A stretch of DNA of 64,000 bases from Polynucleobacter necessarius (GTDB lineage: Bacteria > Pseudomonadota > Gammaproteobacteria > Burkholderiales > Burkholderiaceae). The number at the start of each line of letters is the position of its first letter. The stretch's first letter is position 1. The notes below the pieces were generated by a model that was not told where the DNA came from, searched no databases, and saw only the letters and a program-made list of their open reading frames with translations. The position numbers and the translations under genes were made by a program. Below are positions 30,304 to 37,529 of this stretch, piece by piece. The stretch is from contig NZ_LT606951.1 in assembly GCF_900095205.1 (NCBI RefSeq), positions 1,598,262 to 1,662,261 on the forward strand, written 5' to 3'.

Positions 30304-30350
30304 ATTGAGAATCATTCTCATTTGATGTTATATTGAGAATCGTTCTCAAT
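30304..30350 (+). promoter_or_regulatory. Two Fur-box-like palindromes
   Basis: Box 1 TTGAGAATCATTCTCAT (30305-30321) and box 2 ATTGAGAATCGTTCTCAAT (30332-30350, 8-bp perfect arms). Both match the GAGAAT-n-ATTCTC core of the ferric-uptake-regulator operator, centred 28 bp apart and ending 26 bp before ATG 30376. They probably place the next genes under iron repression. Confidence 0.88.
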
Positions 30351-30375
30351 TAGAGATTTTTTCAATCCATTTTAA

Positions 30376-31290
30376 ATGACTATGAAATTGACTATTAAAA
30401 GACTTGTAGCCTTTAGCATCTTTCTTGTTACCGCCCTTCATCTCTCTTTTGCACATGCTGGAGAAGGGGTGTTTGGCTGGATCTATACCCTCGACTTACA
30501 ACCCAAAGGTAAGCTTGAATTTGAGCAACGCCTACAACTGAACCAAATCCAGGCGTCAGGATCATATGACGCATGGACGGCACGAACTGAGCTCGAATAT
30601 GGATTGACCAATGATTTACAAATTGCTGGATACATCAACTCTTACTACACCAGCGCAAATCAAAATTACACCAACCAAGAGGCATGTGGCGATGCTCCTA
30701 CCTGTACAGGTGGCTATGGAGTCCCCTCTTCTCATGATCCCGCTACAGCCTATAAAAGGGGTGGGATCGAGGGTGGATCACTAGAAGCAATCTATCGCAT
30801 CACTAACCCGGTGACTTCACCAGTTGGAGTAGGGCTCTATCTTGAGCCTACCTGGGGAAGAAATAAGGATGAGCTTGAGGCTATACTGCAGTCAAACTTT
30901 ATTGATGATCGACTCATTTTGGCGGGTAACGTTGTGGCCGCCAATGAGCGTTTGAAGTTTATTGAAAACGACAATGTACCTGAATCGATGCTGGATTTTC
31001 TAGTAGGCGCAAGTTATCGATTTGCTCCCAAATGGTCTGCTGGGGTGGAGGCTCGATTTCATAACGACTATTCCGAGTTGAATTTACGCAATCAGGTTCA
31101 ACGAGCTACCTTTGTAGGCCTCAATATCCACTACGCTGCAAAAAATTGGTGGGTAACTGGTGCTTGACGCTACCAACTTGCCGGTGGAACCTGTATGGAC
31201 GGAGGTGAAGCAGAGTGCTCGAACACGCGTGTATGGGATAGTCACTCGGTGAATGAATTTATTGTCAAAGTTGGCTGCCCCTTAAATTAA
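30376..31290 (+). CDS. Fur-controlled outer-membrane protein, DUF6662-like (in-frame TGA)
   Basis: 304 codons with a signal peptide (FSIFLVTALHLSFAHAGEGV, cut after AHA). The mature sequence looks like a beta-barrel: YTLDLQPKGKLEFEQRLQLN, ARTELEYGLTNDLQIAGYIN, GVGLYLEPTWGRNKDELEAI, LVGASYRFAPKWSAGVEARF and FVGLNIHYAAKNWWVTGA, in line with DUF6662 as I recall it. At 31165-31167 there is TGA, but the frame continues RYQLAGGTCMDGGEAECSNT to TAA at 31288 with a barrel-like end. The normal text here would be GAWRYQL, so TGG to TGA is the likely change. Two loop Cys pairs (EACGDAPTCTGG; TCMDGGEAEC) may be disulfides or metal sites. Role: probably iron-related; unproven. Confidence 0.75.
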
Positions 31291-31318
31291 TTGGAGAGTA
31301 ATTAATTGGAGAGCAACT

Positions 31319-31493
31319 ATGGAAATTCAAAATTTATTAGTTGGTGCCCTATATTTGGTGAAGTTTCAATCCACGCAATGTCCATCAGCAAGAGGAAGAG
31401 CATTGCTGATGTTTGATGTATTAGCTGAACAACAAGACTTGGATCCCAATATTCAAAATTTGCTATGAGGCGAATGACTTACTCGCCACCTAA
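31319..31493 (+). CDS. Small cytoplasmic-looking protein in the Fur locus
   Basis: ATG 31319 with GGAGAG 6 bases upstream. Read strictly it gives 49 residues to TGA 31466: MEIQNLLVGALYLVKFQSTQ, CPSARGRALLMFDVLAEQQD, LDPNIQNLL. One base shift at 31463 would extend it with YEANDLLAT to TAA 31491, which looks like a natural helical ending, so a single indel is suspected. No signal peptide; one Cys. Two copies of AATTAATTGGAGAG-like sequence precede it (about 31287-31313). I do not know the family. Same strand and close spacing suggest it is part of the Fur-box unit. Confidence 0.55.
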
Positions 31494-31538
31494 TACACTC
31501 GCCACATCAATTGATACTCATTACTTTATTTTAAAAAT

Positions 31539-32096
31539 ATGAACTGGAAACCCAATCCACTCGCCATTCTTGGTCTGGCAATGATGAGCGCGCCCATCAT
31601 TGCTCAAGCAAAAATTTATGTTTCAGCGGAACAGGCCCAAAAAATTCTTTTCCCAAATAAGACCCTAAGCAAGAATCCCATCATCATTACAGAAGATCTA
31701 CAAGACAAAATGCGAGCTGCATCCAGTATTCGCCATGCATTTCAAGGTGAACGCATCTGGAAAACATCGGATGGTAGCTGGCTCGTCATTGACGAAGTCA
31801 TTGGCAAGCATGAAATGGTTACTTATGCAGTAGCTCTCAGCCCAACTGGCGCCATCTTAGGAATTGAAATTCTGGAATACGTCGAATCTTATGGGTACGA
31901 GGTCGCAGAACCGCAGTGGCGTAGGCAATTTATTGGCAAAACAGTCAGCAACCCCATTAAGCTCAATCAGGATATTCAAAATATTGGTGGGGCAACACTC
32001 TCCTGCAAGCACATTACTGATGGCGTGAAACGTGTAACAGTCCTATATGACTTGGCGCTAAAAAATATGTCTACCAAATTCATCGGCGGGAAATAA
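31539..32096 (+). CDS. Periplasmic FMN-binding protein (ApbE substrate)
   Basis: 185 residues. Signal peptide LAILGLAMMSAPIIAQAKIY (cut after AQA). The C-terminal FMN-binding domain has ILGIEILEYVESYGYEVAEP, WRRQFIGKTVSNPIKLNQDI and NIGGATLSCKHITDGVKRVT. In this family the Thr of the (S/G)GATxS motif receives FMN through a phosphoester bond, made by ApbE. The next gene, 7 bp on, is apbE, which supports this. The first Gly replaces the more common Ser of SGAT. Role of the flavin: one- or two-electron transfer in the periplasm, plausibly reduction of ferric iron given the Fur boxes. Intact. Confidence 0.88.
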   Translation: MNWKPNPLAILGLAMMSAPIIAQAKIYVSAEQAQKILFPNKTLSKNPIIITEDLQDKMRAASSIRHAFQGERIWKTSDGSWLVIDEVIGKHEMVTYAVALSPTGAILGIEILEYVESYGYEVAEPQWRRQFIGKTVSNPIKLNQDIQNIGGATLSCKHITDGVKRVTVLYDLALKNMSTKFIGGK

Positions 32097-32103
32097 GTTT
32101 TAT

Positions 32104-32925
32104 ATGGTTCGTTGCAAGCCATTGCTTGACACCTACGTAGAGGTATCGATTGATGAATCCGATAGACAGATGGCGGTTGATAACGCCTTTAGGGCTATTC
32201 AGATTGTTCATGAGCTCATGGGGTTTCGTAACCCACAGAGCGAATTGAGCCGAATCAATCGCCAGGCTCATATTGAGGCAATAGAAATTCATGCCTGGAC
32301 TGTGCAAGTTCTAAAGATTGCTAAAAAAATCCACCAGAAATCTCAAGGACTCTTTGATTGCGACATCGGACATCGCTTAGTTGCAGCAGGCCTATTGCCA
32401 AGTCATATCACTTTCCAAAATCATCATTTAGGTGGCATTGCAGATATCCAATTTTTAGCGCCTGATCTGATAAGGTCTTTGCGTCCAGTCTGCTTAGACC
32501 TTGGTGGAATTGCCAAGGGCTTTGCAGTAGATATGGCCGTCAGAGTGCTGATATCAGAGGGTGTTCAGTCAGGCATAGTCAATGCAGGTGGAGATCTACG
32601 AGTATTTGGCAATACTTCTCGACCCATTCAGATTCGTAACCCCTTCTTACCAAATACAACGCTTGAAATTGGTTCGTTGAAAAATGGTGCAATTGCAACT
32701 AGCAGTCTTTACTTTGCAAAAAGAGATCGATTGCAAAGCCACATCATTAACCCCTTTGCGCAAGACGCCACCGGGATACACGTTGATGTGAATGGTTCCT
32801 TTTCCATTCTTGCAAAAGAATGCGTCTATGCTGATGCACTTACTAAGGTTTTGGCTCTATCCAACAATGCGCATCACCCTTGCTTCAAATACTTCTCAGC
32901 GCAAGCGTTAAGGATTACTGCGTGA
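32104..32925 (+). CDS. apbE: FAD:protein FMN transferase ApbE
   Basis: 273 residues. It splits FAD and attaches FMN to Thr/Ser of exported proteins with Mg2+. Seen: LLDTYVEVSIDESDRQMAVD, FRAIQIVHELMGFRNPQSEL, DIGHRLVAAG, VCLDLGGIAKGFAVDMAVRV (the conserved LGGIAKG), SGIVNAGGDLRVFG (GGD) and IATSSLYFAKRD (TS, metal site), plus HIINPF in place of the usual HIIDP. No signal peptide is visible; the start at 32104 is only a few residues before the family's first conserved block, so the protein as read is cytoplasmic or its leader is missing. Located directly after its likely substrate. GTGA overlap with the next gene. Confidence 0.92.
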   Translation: MVRCKPLLDTYVEVSIDESDRQMAVDNAFRAIQIVHELMGFRNPQSELSRINRQAHIEAIEIHAWTVQVLKIAKKIHQKSQGLFDCDIGHRLVAAGLLPSHITFQNHHLGGIADIQFLAPDLIRSLRPVCLDLGGIAKGFAVDMAVRVLISEGVQSGIVNAGGDLRVFGNTSRPIQIRNPFLPNTTLEIGSLKNGAIATSSLYFAKRDRLQSHIINPFAQDATGIHVDVNGSFSILAKECVYADALTKVLALSNNAHHPCFKYFSAQALRITA

Positions 32926-33365
32926 GCCGACTTGGAAAAATGTCCAACTGGCAAAAATCCTTCGTAATATGCGGCATGCTTACCTGCTCCATTGCTGGGC
33001 TACTCTATCTACTAGGGCATCAATTTCATATTCAACGAGCTATTCTTGGTAAGCATCACATTTTGGTTGCACATGGTGTTGCAGTAATGCTTGCCTCCCT
33101 AGCACTCGGTTCGGTCCTGACTTTTCATATCAAAGCAGGATATCAGTCAAAGCGCCGGTGGATCAGCGGCTTTAGTCAGCTAAGCTTTTTAGCTGTGTTG
33201 CTCATTTCAGGCACCCTACTTTACTATGGCCCTGAAGAAATACGCGATTGCGTCATAGACACACACTGGATTGCAGGTTTAATTTTCTTCGTTATATTTT
33301 TAATTCATGTAATGAAAAATGATGAAACTAGTCTTCCCCTAAGGAGAGGTCAAAGAACTTATTAA
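32922..33365 (+). CDS. Four-helix membrane protein, possible heme b carrier
   Basis: 147 residues from GTG 32922, which overlaps the apbE stop (GTGA); ATG 32940 is an alternative. Four helices: SFVICGMLTCSIAGLLYLLG, ILVAHGVAVMLASLALGSVL, GFSQLSFLAVLLISGTLLYY and THWIAGLIFFVIFLIHVMKN. His residues sit at helix ends on both sides (HHILVAHG, FHIKAG, DTHW, LIHVM), the arrangement of DUF4405/cytochrome b-like proteins that move quinol electrons across the membrane. It would fit as the electron feeder for the FMN protein two genes upstream. Heme binding is inference only. Intact. Confidence 0.65.
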   Translation: MSRLGKMSNWQKSFVICGMLTCSIAGLLYLLGHQFHIQRAILGKHHILVAHGVAVMLASLALGSVLTFHIKAGYQSKRRWISGFSQLSFLAVLLISGTLLYYGPEEIRDCVIDTHWIAGLIFFVIFLIHVMKNDETSLPLRRGQRTY

Positions 33366-33389
33366 ATCCGTCTTAATATAAAATAAATA

Positions 33390-34212
33390 ATGGATTTTTC
33401 ATTATTGCTGAGCCCTTCTTTAGGACTAATGGTGGGCCTAGTAATGGGGCTCACTGGCGCTGGCGGCGGAATTCTTTCTGTGCTGCTCTAGTATTTGCTC
33501 TTCATTTGAATGTTGCAGAAGCTGCCCCCATCTCTCTTGCAGCAATTACCCTAGCATCAGGAGTGGGTGCATTGCTAGGGTTAAAGAATAAGATTCTTCG
33601 CTATAAAGCAGCTGTACTCATGGCGATATTTGGGCTGGTACTCTCGCCAATTGGGCTTATGGGTATCGCAATGTATTCCAAATGCGCCTCTATTGATTCT
33701 CTTTAGCCTCACCCTCTTTTATGTGTCTATTCGCTTATATCGACAAGCGTACAAGGAATTGCGCGGCATATCCGATTTTGAAGATATGCCCCCACCACCG
33801 TGTTTGCTAGATGCTTCTAGAGATAAGCTCACCTGGAATATCCCCTGTGCCAGAGCGCTTATGCTCTCCGGCGGATTAGCGGGTTTTCTTTCTGGACTCC
33901 TGGGGGTAGGGTGGAGGTTTTGTGATCGTGCCAGCACTGAAGCGCTACACCGATTTACCGGTGAGCTCTATTATTGCCACCTCTCTAGGCGTTCTAACCA
34001 TTATTGCCGGTGGAGGCACTATTTTTTCTGCCATCTCAGGAAATCTGAATATCGCTATTGCAGCACCTTACGCAATAGGATTCTTATTTGGCTTAATCAT
34101 AGGAAGAGGCTTAGGTAAAAGATTAAGTGGGCCAAGATTGCAACAAATTTTCTCGGTACTGACATTTAGCGTTGCCATCAGCTTGATCATTAAAGGATTT
34201 AATAACTTATGA
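33390..34212 (+). CDS. Sulfite exporter TauE/SafE family permease (frameshifts)
   Basis: About 270 residues in four frame segments. Start MDFSLLLSPSLGLMVGLVMG, LTGAGGGILSV (family GxGGG motif); then EAAPISLAAITLASGVGALL; then YVSIRLYRQAYKELRGISDF; then ALMLSGGLAGFLSGLLGVGG, VIVPALKRYTDLPVSSIIAT, TSLGVLTIIAGGGTIFSAIS and LGKRLSGPRLQQIFSVLTFS. Two homologous halves with GGG motifs and eight helices, as in TauE/SafE. Frame changes near 33485, 33680 and 33912. The family moves organic anions, sulfite or cofactors; substrate not inferable. It overlaps the next gene by 4 bp (ATGA) and is part of the same unit. Confidence 0.85.
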
Positions 34213-34772
34213 AAAAGCCTTTAGCATCATTGGTCTATATTCTTATATTCAGTTTTTTAGGAGTTCTGCTGATGTCTATTACCAAGCCAAATACTTTTCT
34301 CTCTAGCTCTGTCAGCGCTATCTCAGGAACGGTCAGCAATTTCAATAATGAAATTCTGGAATACGTCAATCCAGAAAAGCCAACCCACGATCATTCATCG
34401 GTATATTACAAACGCTTTTTCATCTCAAAATTTAATTTAGAGAATAAAGTCATTGAGGCGAAGTTTTCATCCCCCATGAAGATTGCCGAAGGGGACCAGA
34501 TCACGGTATCGGGATATCAAAAGGACAACGCTTTTCAGGTTCTAGCCTACAGCAACCAAACACAAGACGTCATCAACAATGAAAGCTGGATCGTTCTGTG
34601 TTTTGGCGCCCTCTTTTTCTTTGCAGTAGCAATTGGCTTACTCAATAGCGAACTGGTGCTTGAGGGTGCAATCATTCCAAAACTCTTTTTATTTGGATTC
34701 ACCCTAGTTGCGCTGTATATGGGTTACCGTGCGTTACTGATTCGTGAGGCAATCAAACTCCTGTCTAGTTAG
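34209..34772 (+). CDS. Membrane protein with periplasmic domain, unknown function
   Basis: 187 residues. One N-terminal helix (LASLVYILIFSFLGVLLMSI), a periplasmic domain of about 100 residues containing KPTHDHSSVYYKRFFISKFN and KIAEGDQITVSGYQKDNAFQ, and two C-terminal helices (WIVLCFGALFFFAVAIGLLN; LFLFGFTLVALYMGYRALLI). The IAEGDQITVSGYQK segment looks like an OB-fold strand pair, and the HDH triplet could bind metal. No family recognised. ATGA overlap with the permease ties them together in translation. An intrinsic terminator follows, so this is the last gene of the Fur-box locus. Intact. Confidence 0.6.
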   Translation: MKKPLASLVYILIFSFLGVLLMSITKPNTFLSSSVSAISGTVSNFNNEILEYVNPEKPTHDHSSVYYKRFFISKFNLENKVIEAKFSSPMKIAEGDQITVSGYQKDNAFQVLAYSNQTQDVINNESWIVLCFGALFFFAVAIGLLNSELVLEGAIIPKLFLFGFTLVALYMGYRALLIREAIKLLSS

Positions 34773-34801: not shown

Positions 34802-34833
34802 CAAAAAGCCCTTATTTCTTAGGGCTTTTTTAT
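34802..34833. terminator. Intrinsic terminator, probably bidirectional, ending the Fur locus and the liv operon
   Basis: AAAAAGCCCTTA-TTTC-TTAGGGCTTTTTTA: 9-bp or longer stem with A- and T-runs, between the convergent units. Confidence 0.92.
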
Positions 34834-34855: not shown

Positions 34856-35590
34856 TTAGTGACCAGTAGCACCACCCAAATATGCTGCTTTCACAGCAGG
34901 GTCGTGCATCAACTTATCCGCAGGTCCATGAGTAGCAATCTTGCCGTTCTCAAGCACATAGCCGTAATCCGCCACATTTAACGCCGCAGCAGCAAACTGC
35001 TCAACCAACAACATAGTTACACCTTGCGACTTCAAATTGGAAATAATCTTAAATACTTCCTCCACCAAGATTGGTGCGAGACCCATTGATGGCTCATCCA
35101 AGAGAATAATCTCTGGATTTAACATCACAGCACGGGCCATTGCCAACATTTGCTGCTCACCACCAGATAGCGTTCCAGCTAATTGATTGCGACGCTCTTT
35201 AAGACGCAGGAACATTTCTAAAGACTTTTCCAAGTCATTCTTGTGATGTCGCCCTTAGAGCGACTTCCCGTAAAACGCGGAAACGCGCCCAAGAGTAAAT
35301 TGTCGGTCACAGACATCGTCGTAAATACGCGGCGACCTTCTGGACTATGCGCTAAACCCAAGCGAGCGATTTTATGAGAGTCGTAACCATCAATTTTTTC
35401 GCCACCTAGAGTGACTTCACCCGCAGTGGGCTTGATCATGCCAGTGATGGCACGCATAGTAGTCGTTTTGCCTGCACCGTTTGTGAGCACCAATCAAGGT
35501 AATGACTTGACCCTTAGGAACATCAATATTGATGCCGTGGAGGACTTTTACCTTACCGTAGCCTGCTTCAAAATTCTTAATAGATAACAT
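34856..35590 (-). CDS. livF: Branched-chain amino-acid ABC transporter ATP-binding protein LivF (frameshifts)
   Basis: Second ATPase of the LIV system. ATG 35590 gives MLSIKNFEAGYGKVKVLHGI, then the Walker A region AGKTTTMRAITGMIKPTAGE, KIARLGLAHSPEGRRVFTTM (LivF-typical PEGRRVF), the ABC signature AGTLSGGEQQMLAMARAVML, Walker B IILLDEPSMGLAPILVEEVF and TMLLVEQFAAAALNVADYGY. It ends YLGGATGH. Frame changes near 35486 and 35228. About 243 residues, normal. Last gene of the minus-strand liv operon. Confidence 0.93.
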
Positions 35591-35620
35591 GGTATTTACC
35601 GATTCAATATGTTCTAGTGA

Positions 35621-36484
35621 TTAAGTACCCAAGTAGGCATGAATCACCTTCTCGTCTGCCTGAACTTCAGCTGGTTTACCTTCTGCAATCTTTTGATCGA
35701 AGTCCAATACAGAAACGGTATCGCAAACTGACATCACCACATCCATATGGTGTTCAATCAGGATGAAAGTAATACCGCTATCGCGGATCTTACGAATGAT
35801 GCGCAAAAGCTCTTTGATATCGGGCGCCGTTAAACCTGCAGCCGGCTCGTCCAATAAGAGCAACTCGGGATCCAATGCCAAGGCACGTGCAATCTCGAGC
35901 AAACGTTGCTTATCATATGGCAAATTACGCGCTTCTTCATTAGCCAAATCATCCAAACCCACGAATTTGAGAAGCGCCAAAGCACGCGCATACGCATGCG
36001 CATCAGCCTCTTCCTTCTTATAGCGTGGAAGATGCAAAGCAATCTCCAACATATTGGATTTGAAGGTGTGATGCAAACCAACTAAAATATTTTGGATGGC
36101 GGTCATTTCGCCGAAAAGTTGTACGTTTTGGAAGGTACGCGCAATGCCAGACAAAGCAATGTCAGAAGACGTCTTGCCAACAACACTTTCGCCAGAATAC
36201 AAAACGTTACCAGCAGTTGGCACATAGATACCTGTCAAGACGTTCATCATGGTGCTCTTACCGGAACCGTTAGGACCGATCAAGCCATGAATCGTGCCAC
36301 GCTTAATGCTGAGATCAACGTTGTTCAAGGCTTTCAAACCACCGAACTGCATTAATACGGAATCAACTTTTAAGAGTTCTTCGCCAGTATTTTGATTGGC
36401 AACGGTGCTGATGAAGCTGATCGAGCTATCCACTTCCTCATGCTCGCCACCACGGGTTGTTTTAGCTTTTCGCAAAACCAACAA
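35621..36484 (-). CDS. livG: LivG-type ATP-binding part of a LivM-LivG fusion
   Basis: ATPase domain: LLKVDSVLMQFGGLKALNNV, Walker A HGLIGPNGSGKSTMMNVLTG, IARTFQNVQLFGEMTAIQNI (LivG-type RTFQNVxLF), the signature region NLPYDKQRLLEIARALALDP (LPYxxQR in place of LSGGQ, as usual in LivG), Walker B LLLLDEPAAGLTAPDIKELL and TFILIEHHMDVVMSVCDTVS. No ATG lies at a normal place before the domain; the open frame extends about 45 residues upstream (KAKTTRGGEHEEVDSSIS) up to the permease end. In Burkholderiales these two proteins are often one polypeptide, and that is the best reading here. It cooperates with LivF, LivH and the binding protein. Confidence 0.9.
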   Translation of the reverse strand: MLVLRKAKTTRGGEHEEVDSSISFISTVANQNTGEELLKVDSVLMQFGGLKALNNVDLSIKRGTIHGLIGPNGSGKSTMMNVLTGIYVPTAGNVLYSGESVVGKTSSDIALSGIARTFQNVQLFGEMTAIQNILVGLHHTFKSNMLEIALHLPRYKKEEADAHAYARALALLKFVGLDDLANEEARNLPYDKQRLLEIARALALDPELLLLDEPAAGLTAPDIKELLRIIRKIRDSGITFILIEHHMDVVMSVCDTVSVLDFDQKIAEGKPAEVQADEKVIHAYLGT

Positions 36485-37529
36485 TACCGTTTTGCAAGTA
36501 ATAAACCACCAGCAAAATCATGAAGCTAAAAATACTGAGGCGCCAGTCGGGAGACAGTGTTCAACCAGAATGAAAATGCTGCTAAACCAACTACGCTAGC
36601 AATAGGGATTGCCACACGTCTTGGGGTGGTAATTTTCTTGGAAAGGGCTAGAGCGGCACCAGCCACCACAACGATTGCAATAATCGAAGCCACGATTCGG
36701 AACAGGTTGATATCGTCCAAAAGCTTTGGTAACAACACGATAATGGCCGCACCAATCACTGCGCCCAGACGTGACTTGCGGACCTATAATGATGCCGAGC
36801 AAGAAGAGCACAGCTAATTCATTGTTATAGGTGTTTGGTGAAATATATTGCTCTGAGTATGCATATAAGCAACCCGCTAAACCAGCAAAACCAGCACTGA
36901 TCACGAATGCAATGACCTTAAAGCAATAAACAGAGACTCCCATACAGTCACAAGCAATTGGGCTATCACGCAACGCTTCGAACGCACGACCAATTTGTGA
37001 CTTCACAAAACGATCAACAACAATCAAAGAAAGAATCAAGATGATGCATACCATCCAGAAATACTCTGCCTTAGTCATTGGCACGCCCATAAGGTCTGAC
37101 TTTGGAATCTTAATACCCAAGGACCTTCGGTCATCCAAGTCATCTCATTAATCAGAATCTGTGCATCGTTCCAAAAGCCAAGGTCACCATCGCCAAATAA
37201 GGACCGATAACCTTTAGAGCAGGCAAGGCCAAGATGCCACCGAAGATAAAGATCACGATGATGGATGCAGGAATGGTTCCCCAGATAGTCCATCCGAAAT
37301 GGAAATACAAAACACCGGCTGTGTAGGAACCAATTCCGAAAAGAGCGGCATGGCCTAAAGAAACCTGACCAACATAACCCACCACGATATCCAAACCACA
37401 TAACAAGATGGTGTAGATCAGAATCGTTTCAACTAAGTGAATGTAATACGGGTTATGAATAAACAACGGCAGGCAAAAAAGCGCCGCTATAGCAATTAAT
37501 ATAGGTAATAGAGACTTCAATTTCATCAT
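36485..37529 (-). CDS. livM: LivM-type permease part of a LivM-LivG fusion (frameshifts)
   Basis: Inner-membrane permease. ATG 37529: MMKLKSLLPILIAIAALFCL, IYTILLCGLDIVVGYVGQVS, LGHAALFGIGSYTAGVLYFH, ALKVIGPYLAMVTLAFGTM; next frame VPMTKAEYFWMVCIILILSL, GRAFEALRDSPIACDCMGVS (the EAA-like permease loop), SAGFAGLAGCLYAYSEQYIS; then MIGAAIIVLLPKLLDDINLF, DWRLSIFSFMILLVVYYLQN and GIVGF. Frame changes near 37160, 36785, 36545 and, at the fusion joint, a T-run at 36481-36488; without the last one it would stop at 36472. The segment KKITTPRRVAIPIASVV between late helices is typical of the Burkholderiales fusion. It overlaps livH by one base. Confidence 0.88.

Follow-up and report, generated by a model that had tools for sequence, protein, structure and literature searches.

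Gene content and conserved core of the locus

Positions 30,304 to 34,772 of a 64,000-nucleotide stretch of the Polynucleobacter necessarius genome (contig NZ_LT606951.1, 1,598,262 to 1,662,261; called the window in the following) carry a row of genes on one strand, which an earlier note had described as a Fur-box-controlled flavin/heme locus and a candidate for a periplasmic electron-transfer or iron-handling system. The outer-membrane barrel, here assigned to family DUF6662, the flavin mononucleotide (FMN) binding protein with its GGATLS motif, the flavin transferase ApbE and a membrane protein with four transmembrane segments (4-TM), which matches DUF4405 below threshold, were all recovered at this locus (Table 1). 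The ApbE gene is the single ApbE match in the genome, and a Pfam scan of the small open reading frame (ORF) between barrel and FMN gene returned no family match. Three junctions, rather than the four counted before, overlap or lie within 8 bp, namely FMN-ApbE (7 bp), ApbE-cytochrome (4-bp overlap) and TauE-last gene (4-bp overlap). A stem-loop with a T-run is visible at about 34803-34832, where the earlier note had placed a strong terminator, but the terminator scan made no call there.

Table 1. Features of the locus, in positions of the window
Feature	Position	Strand	Evidence and remarks
Fur-type box 1, TGAGAATCATTCTCA	30306-30320	.	exact site; 1-2 sites at the counterpart of 29/30 genus loci
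Fur-type box 2, TGAGAATCGTTCTCA	30334-30348	.	2 sites at 23/30 genus loci
DUF6662 outer-membrane barrel gene	30376-31290	+	PF20367, 35 bits (cut-off 27)
Small ORF	31319-31468	+	shortened copy; ORF at 12/30 genus loci
FMN_bind protein, signal-peptide-like start, GGATLS	31539-32096	+	PF04205, 35.9 bits (cut-off 22)
ApbE flavin transferase	32104-32925	+	PF02424, 138 bits
Putative cytochrome b with two hemes, 4-TM, starting with GTG	32922-33365	+	DUF4405, 19 bits (cut-off 26.7); invariant His; hydropathy
TauE/SafE permease region, frame-broken, non-core neighbour	33390-34212	+	PF01925 on the 3' part, 45 bits
Last gene, membrane protein, non-core neighbour	34209-34772	+	no Pfam match at or above cut-off

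The FMN protein is present in 29 of the 36 other genomes of the genus. Thirty loci were read in these genomes, one of which (G008) contributes two. By tblastn, the FMN protein was found at all 30 loci, the barrel at 29 (all but L056), ApbE at 29 and the putative cytochrome at 27; ApbE is missing at L055, which ends early, and the cytochrome at L055, L060 and L061. Gene order is the same throughout, with a few copies broken, and the closest relative as judged by FMN protein identity (90%) is G002. The conserved core consists of the DUF6662 barrel, the FMN_bind protein, ApbE and the 4-TM membrane protein. Intact relatives of the small ORF (L032, L056 and others) encode about 59 amino acids with two mostly conserved cysteines, and this family-less protein stays beside the FMN gene even at L056, where the core has moved. 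The second locus of G008 (L057) is a further full barrel-small ORF-FMN-ApbE-cytochrome operon and adjoins a ferritin-family gene.

Outside the genus, a pattern scan with a query from another genus yielded at least 529 confirmed relatives, the best 80 of which are referred to here as the named loci; their titles are mostly those of Burkholderiales or other betaproteobacteria. At these loci a MauG-like diheme protein (PF03150) and a porin-like barrel, the latter below Pfam cut-offs, precede the genes for FMN protein, ApbE and cytochrome. The FMN protein was counted at 80 loci, ApbE at 78, the porin at 77, the cytochrome at 74 and the MauG-like protein at 69, some contigs ending early. By tblastn, DUF6662, TauE, SQR and the last gene were found at none of the best 80. 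A CCP_MauG match was found in none of the 37 genomes of the genus. Thus, the same inner core is kept throughout and is combined with one of two types of outer-membrane part. In a wider set of 180 Burkholderiales genomes drawn evenly, a DUF6662 profile search found the barrel in 13, all of them among the 28 genomes with a strong FMN match (Fisher 1.7e-12, kinship ignored); it lies at most 415 bases from the FMN gene in all 13 and on the same strand in 12.

A putative diheme cytochrome and a flavinylation motif

The 4-TM protein scores 19 and 21.6 bits against DUF4405 (PF14358), under the cut-off of 26.7. An alignment of 72 cytochromes, taken from 95 sequences (the window protein plus 23 and 71 others) that had been length-filtered beforehand and from which two broken ones were left out, contains exactly four histidines among its invariant columns. 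These residues, His51, His69, His115 and His129, are located near the ends of helices 2 and 4 according to hydropathy, as would suit a cytochrome b with two hemes. With an N-terminus on the inner side, His51 and His115 would face the periplasm and His69 and His129 the cytoplasm, and the protein could form a two-heme wire across the membrane, with the histidines paired in this way. A search against solved structures gave a weak match to heme A synthase for the cytochrome (E 0.083) and no relevant match for the barrel.

ApbE attaches FMN at the threonine of an I(S/G)GAT motif. The corresponding motif [IL]xGAT[LM]S was found in 114 of the 114 FMN protein homologs read, one of which has L for I. 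Histidines and motif together support the route from membrane heme b to a covalent FMN protein which the earlier note had predicted from the sequence. In the window as well as in the genus relatives, the ApbE sequence begins with the fold itself, and a signal peptide is not evident from the hydrophobicity of the protein starts; the threshold applied was passed by 1 of 29 ApbE compared to 25 of 29 FMN proteins.

Fur-type boxes upstream of the barrel gene

Both palindromes named in the earlier note are present upstream of the barrel gene, with a 7-1-7 architecture, and exact TTGAGAATNRTTCTCA sites occur in the window at these two boxes only. The exact sequence TGANAATNATTNTCA is found at two places in the 1.93-Mb genome, box 1 being one of them, and box 2 departs from this pattern by one mismatch. 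The other exact palindrome (L090:5429-5443, position 1680429 of the same genome) lies about 100 bases 5' of a HiPIP-like gene, near folE. The best promoter-like site around the boxes has its -35 element at 30305 and a -10 element ending at 30334; box 1 overlaps the former and box 2 follows the latter, a geometry as would be expected under Fur repression, with the limit that promoter-like sites taken together are no more frequent here than chance predicts (8 found, 9.9 expected). Even with up to three mismatches allowed, the window contains no match to the classic 19-base Fur pattern. The genome itself encodes Fur (163 bits, cut-off 146).

The boxes are conserved. When the 30 genus loci were scanned upstream of the barrel with a 15-base consensus of 14 fixed bases, at least 11 of which had to match, two sites were found at 23 loci, one at 6 and none at L050, a locus whose barrel start is merely extrapolated. 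In G026 the operon is divided: the barrel, TauE and the last gene occupy the usual site with two Fur-like sites, and the small ORF, FMN protein, ApbE and cytochrome are encoded at a distance of about 1.3 Mb, measured in contig coordinates, and are preceded by a single Fur-like site. For the named loci, a site was counted as Fur-like with at least 10 of 12 fixed bases within 300 bases upstream, and 11 of the 80 were dropped, the first gene being the FMN gene or lying less than 350 bases from the contig end. Such sites were present at 42 of the 69 testable loci compared to 15 of 2956 control windows, which were equally long and drawn from these loci. Conserved boxes in the genus and at the named loci, together with the encoded Fur protein, argue for Fur-type control, and the palindromes look like genuine Fur boxes.

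Linkage to FeoB

A partner that the earlier note had not proposed suggests a link between the core and iron. At 9 of the best 80 named loci feoB directly follows the cytochrome gene, with a FeoA-like ORF, read by eye, in between at 6 of these 9, and at two Derxia loci feoB lies about 2.8 kb upstream. One further locus (L199) begins with hemP. In P. necessarius itself, feoAB are encoded elsewhere in the genome, and a Fur-like box precedes feoA by 45 bases; 3' of this feoB, at L195:36-1125, lie a short ORF and one for an exported barrel-like protein, with no match in Pfam.

FeoB and the core also occur together. Within the genus, a strong match to FeoB_N (E <1e-49) was obtained in 25 of the 30 genomes with the core and in none of the 7 without it (p 7.7e-5, kinship ignored), and in the 24 other genomes of the same search FeoB was found in 5 of 5 with and 5 of 19 without the core. 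The FeoB-specific domain was detected in the wider set in 23 of 28 core-positive and 66 of 152 core-negative genomes (p 1.6e-4, kinship ignored). Six of the FMN matches in this set were weak (E 1e-17 to 1e-11) and were scored as core-negative; scored as positive they give 26 of 34 compared to 63 of 146 (p 5e-4, kinship ignored). Linkage and co-occurrence thus support the iron role suggested for the locus by the earlier note.

Proposed function and alternatives

The best explanation of these observations, which we favour with modest confidence and on the basis of sequence data, would be a Fur-repressed periplasmic ferric reductase module feeding the ferrous iron pump FeoB. Its starting points, namely the gene set, the motifs, the boxes and the co-occurrence with FeoB, are seen directly. 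When iron is low, Fur would leave the boxes and the barrel, FMN protein, ApbE and cytochrome would be made, as the conservation of the boxes suggests. The 4-TM cytochrome would then take up electrons, probably from quinol, and pass them across two b hemes, from the one at His69/His129 near the cytoplasm to the one at His51/His115 near the periplasm, and on to the FMN attached by ApbE. The FMN protein would in turn serve as the periplasmic reductant of ferric iron or of small ferric chelates. The DUF6662 barrel might admit the substrate or dock the reductase, which is the least certain step, and Fe2+ would enter through FeoAB, encoded elsewhere behind its own Fur-like box. Many other Burkholderiales would pair this core with a MauG-like diheme protein and a porin-like barrel, and at some of their loci feoAB follows directly. 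Whether barrel, covalent FMN protein and 4-TM diheme cytochrome make up a distinct and widespread class of Fur-controlled assimilatory ferric reductases in Burkholderiales, the electron-supply half of Feo uptake, appears to us evenly balanced.

The boxes, the linkage to feoB, the co-occurrence with FeoB and the Fur-like sites at each of the two halves in G026 are counted in favour of a reductase that feeds FeoB, as are the tie between DUF6662 and the FMN gene, the ferritin-family gene at the second G008 copy, hemP at L199 and the four invariant histidines. Several observations weigh against it. Strong FeoB matches are lacking in 5 of the 30 core-positive genus genomes (G003, G012, G028, which is 78% complete, G031 and G032) and FeoB in 5 of the 28 core-positive genomes of the wider set, and FeoB is common in genomes without the core (66 of 152). 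If the intermediate FeoB match of G056 is counted, the comparison in the other genomes becomes 5 of 5 against 6 of 19 (p 0.011, kinship ignored). Among DUF6662 loci outside the genus just 3 of 9 have a Fur-like site. ApbE has no evident signal peptide though its presumed substrate is exported, which the usual picture of periplasmic flavinylation leaves unexplained, and the MauG-like gene at the named loci suggests that a different acceptor is possible. There are three matches to TonB-type receptors in the genome, and therefore Feo is not the sole conceivable iron route. Finally, the available part of PMC6629928 states, citing another paper, that Polynucleobacter asymbioticus cannot use Fe3+.

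The MauG-like gene is the basis of an alternative that we regard as unlikely, in which the Fur-controlled electron supply serves another acceptor and acts as a quinol peroxidase or antioxidant arm that guards the cells during Fe2+ import. Electrons would run from the FMN protein via the MauG-like diheme protein to H2O2, and in the genus another acceptor would replace the MauG-like protein. The CCP_MauG-family gene does precede the core at 69 of the best 80 named loci; however, core and boxes are kept in the genus, where CCP_MauG matches none of the 37 genomes, and the linkage to feoAB is explained less directly. For the genus itself, a MauG-like peroxidase relay was rejected in view of these 37 genomes. 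It is quite improbable in our view that the module is an iron-sparing substitute, with a flavin carrier taking the place of an iron-rich periplasmic one (cytochrome c or HiPIP) when iron is limiting, to maintain general redox functions and not to reduce iron. Flavin contains no iron, the operon looks Fur-repressed and a HiPIP-like gene lies downstream of the other exact Fur-type site of the genome, but the proposed cytochrome itself requires two hemes, the barrel is tied to the FMN gene, and FeoB is both linked to and co-occurring with the core.

An extension of the module to all seven genes, such that TauE and the last gene would belong to it and an anion or a chelator would be transported as well, must be considered very improbable. 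In the window these genes share one strand with short gaps, and TauE lies downstream at 19 of the 30 genus loci. However, at 15 of the 30 the space between cytochrome and TauE is occupied by an ArsR-type regulator gene and a persulfide-dioxygenase-like gene, both on the opposite strand, and TauE was found neither at the G002 locus nor at any of the best 80 named loci and is separated from the FMN-ApbE-cytochrome part in G026. The last gene is present in 14 of the 37 genus genomes. The co-occurrence in relatives that the earlier note had required holds for barrel, FMN protein, ApbE and cytochrome, but is broken at homologous loci for TauE and the last gene.

Feo carries ferrous iron, and iron in oxygenated water is mostly ferric. 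A FeoB-feeding ferric reductase, if true, would account for the iron supply of FeoAB-bearing freshwater bacteria from oxic, ferric water, and it would assign functions to DUF6662 and a DUF4405-like family. With a Fur-controlled flavin/heme module whose presence, Fur-like boxes and, at some loci, gene order tie it to feoAB, the missing ferric reductase behind Feo becomes a testable question. For Polynucleobacter asymbioticus, ferrous uptake such as FeoAB is the only kind known according to the available part of PMC6629928.

Relation to known systems

Most of the papers compared here were available in part, and what is said of them refers to the available text. In Huang et al. 2024 (PMC11334425), heme b is described in a six-TM DUF4405 protein that is often paired with apbE. 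The membrane protein of the window is likewise small, has four key histidines and lies beside apbE, but it has four transmembrane segments, scores below the cut-off and occurs with an FMN_bind protein and a barrel, whereas the published cytochromes have six and a flavodoxin-type substrate. The available text of the preprint PMC10979944 contains neither TauE nor Polynucleobacter nor beta-barrel. Fur-repressed PepSY-type flavinylation clusters, with iron reduction proposed, are described by Meheust et al. 2021 (PMC8238504), and a Caulobacter DUF2271-DUF4198-ApbE cluster is listed in an iron-response table in PMC3751524. Their ApbE, membrane heme protein, Fur repression and proposed iron reduction have counterparts, in part predicted, at our locus; they use a PepSY membrane protein and a DUF2271 substrate, however, and neither family matched in the nine window proteins that were scanned.

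The nearest working analogue is FsrB-FeoAB of Bradyrhizobium japonicum (PMC10760861), where periplasmic ferric reduction is followed by uptake through FeoAB. FsrB differs in belonging to COG3182 and acting on ferric siderophores, and a covalent flavin protein is not mentioned in the available text, which calls the reductase for inorganic iron in Bradyrhizobium unknown. The FMN protein resembles RnfG and NqrC in its FMN_bind family and motif (match to RnfG 7zc6, E 2.5e-8), but its RnfG/NqrC NCBIfam scores fall far short of the cut-offs (21.7 bits vs 102 and 17.2 vs 144), and neither the window stretch nor the set of genes looked for in relatives contained Rnf/Nqr genes. BthA of Burkholderia (PMC6405878) belongs to the CCP_MauG family, as does the gene that precedes the core at the named loci. 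It is described beside a phosphatase gene rather than a flavin operon, and the family is absent from the 37 genus genomes; BthA was rejected as the same locus. The system fciTABC/feoABI (PMC9047314) was also set aside, flavin parts not being mentioned in the available text. No mention of FMN, flavin, ferric reductase, gene neighborhood or Burkholderia was found in PMC8749426 on Feo evolution. In Bifidobacterium (PMC5449479) chelation makes apbE and an FMN-binding protein important, and the authors read ApbE as acting in Fe-S repair.

A literature search of partial coverage returned no description of this gene set and nothing on DUF6662. The novelty claimed by the earlier note stands for the combination as far as the literature searched goes, but ApbE with DUF4405 cytochromes (PMC11334425) and Fur-repressed ApbE clusters (PMC8238504) have been published. 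The locus differs from the known systems in its membrane protein, its flavoprotein substrate, the barrel and the direct linkage to feoAB.

Defects of this gene copy and neighbouring genes

Several ORFs of the window needed correction. The barrel ORF contains an in-frame TGA at 31165-31167 where the relative L032 reads TGG, and homology continues to 31287, with a TAA at 31288. In the small ORF, the ~10 residues that usually close the protein are missing behind a 2-base difference to the relative G002, and TauE has no open frame in the window but three frame changes. Assembly errors are a likely cause, because the neighbouring liv genes (34859-37529) also carry many frame changes and indels compared to L032 and an RNase E/G gene elsewhere in the genome (L089:6171-7374) looks split in two. 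Therefore, gene loss is not concluded from this genome alone.

The last gene, a 3-TM protein which the earlier note had included in the system, is found in none of the 24 genomes from outside the genus; given its distribution and its separation from FMN-ApbE-cytochrome in G026, it was rejected as part of the core. TauE was likewise rejected as a member, being absent from the G002 locus and the best 80 named loci, split off in G026 and accompanied by sulfide-type neighbours, and its proposed transport of an anion or chelator for the system was not borne out. The gene between cytochrome and TauE in relatives has a metallo-beta-lactamase fold and resembles the dioxygenase part of Blh (persulfide-dioxygenase-like; NCBIfam match below cut-off), and at 3 of the 30 genus loci an SQR-like gene (also a sub-cut-off NCBIfam match) is present in addition. 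At L033, L034 and L037, ArsR, persulfide-dioxygenase-like, SQR-like and TauE genes are inserted 3' of the cytochrome, and their presence varies among relatives. This module resembles one of sulfide oxidation with sulfite export.

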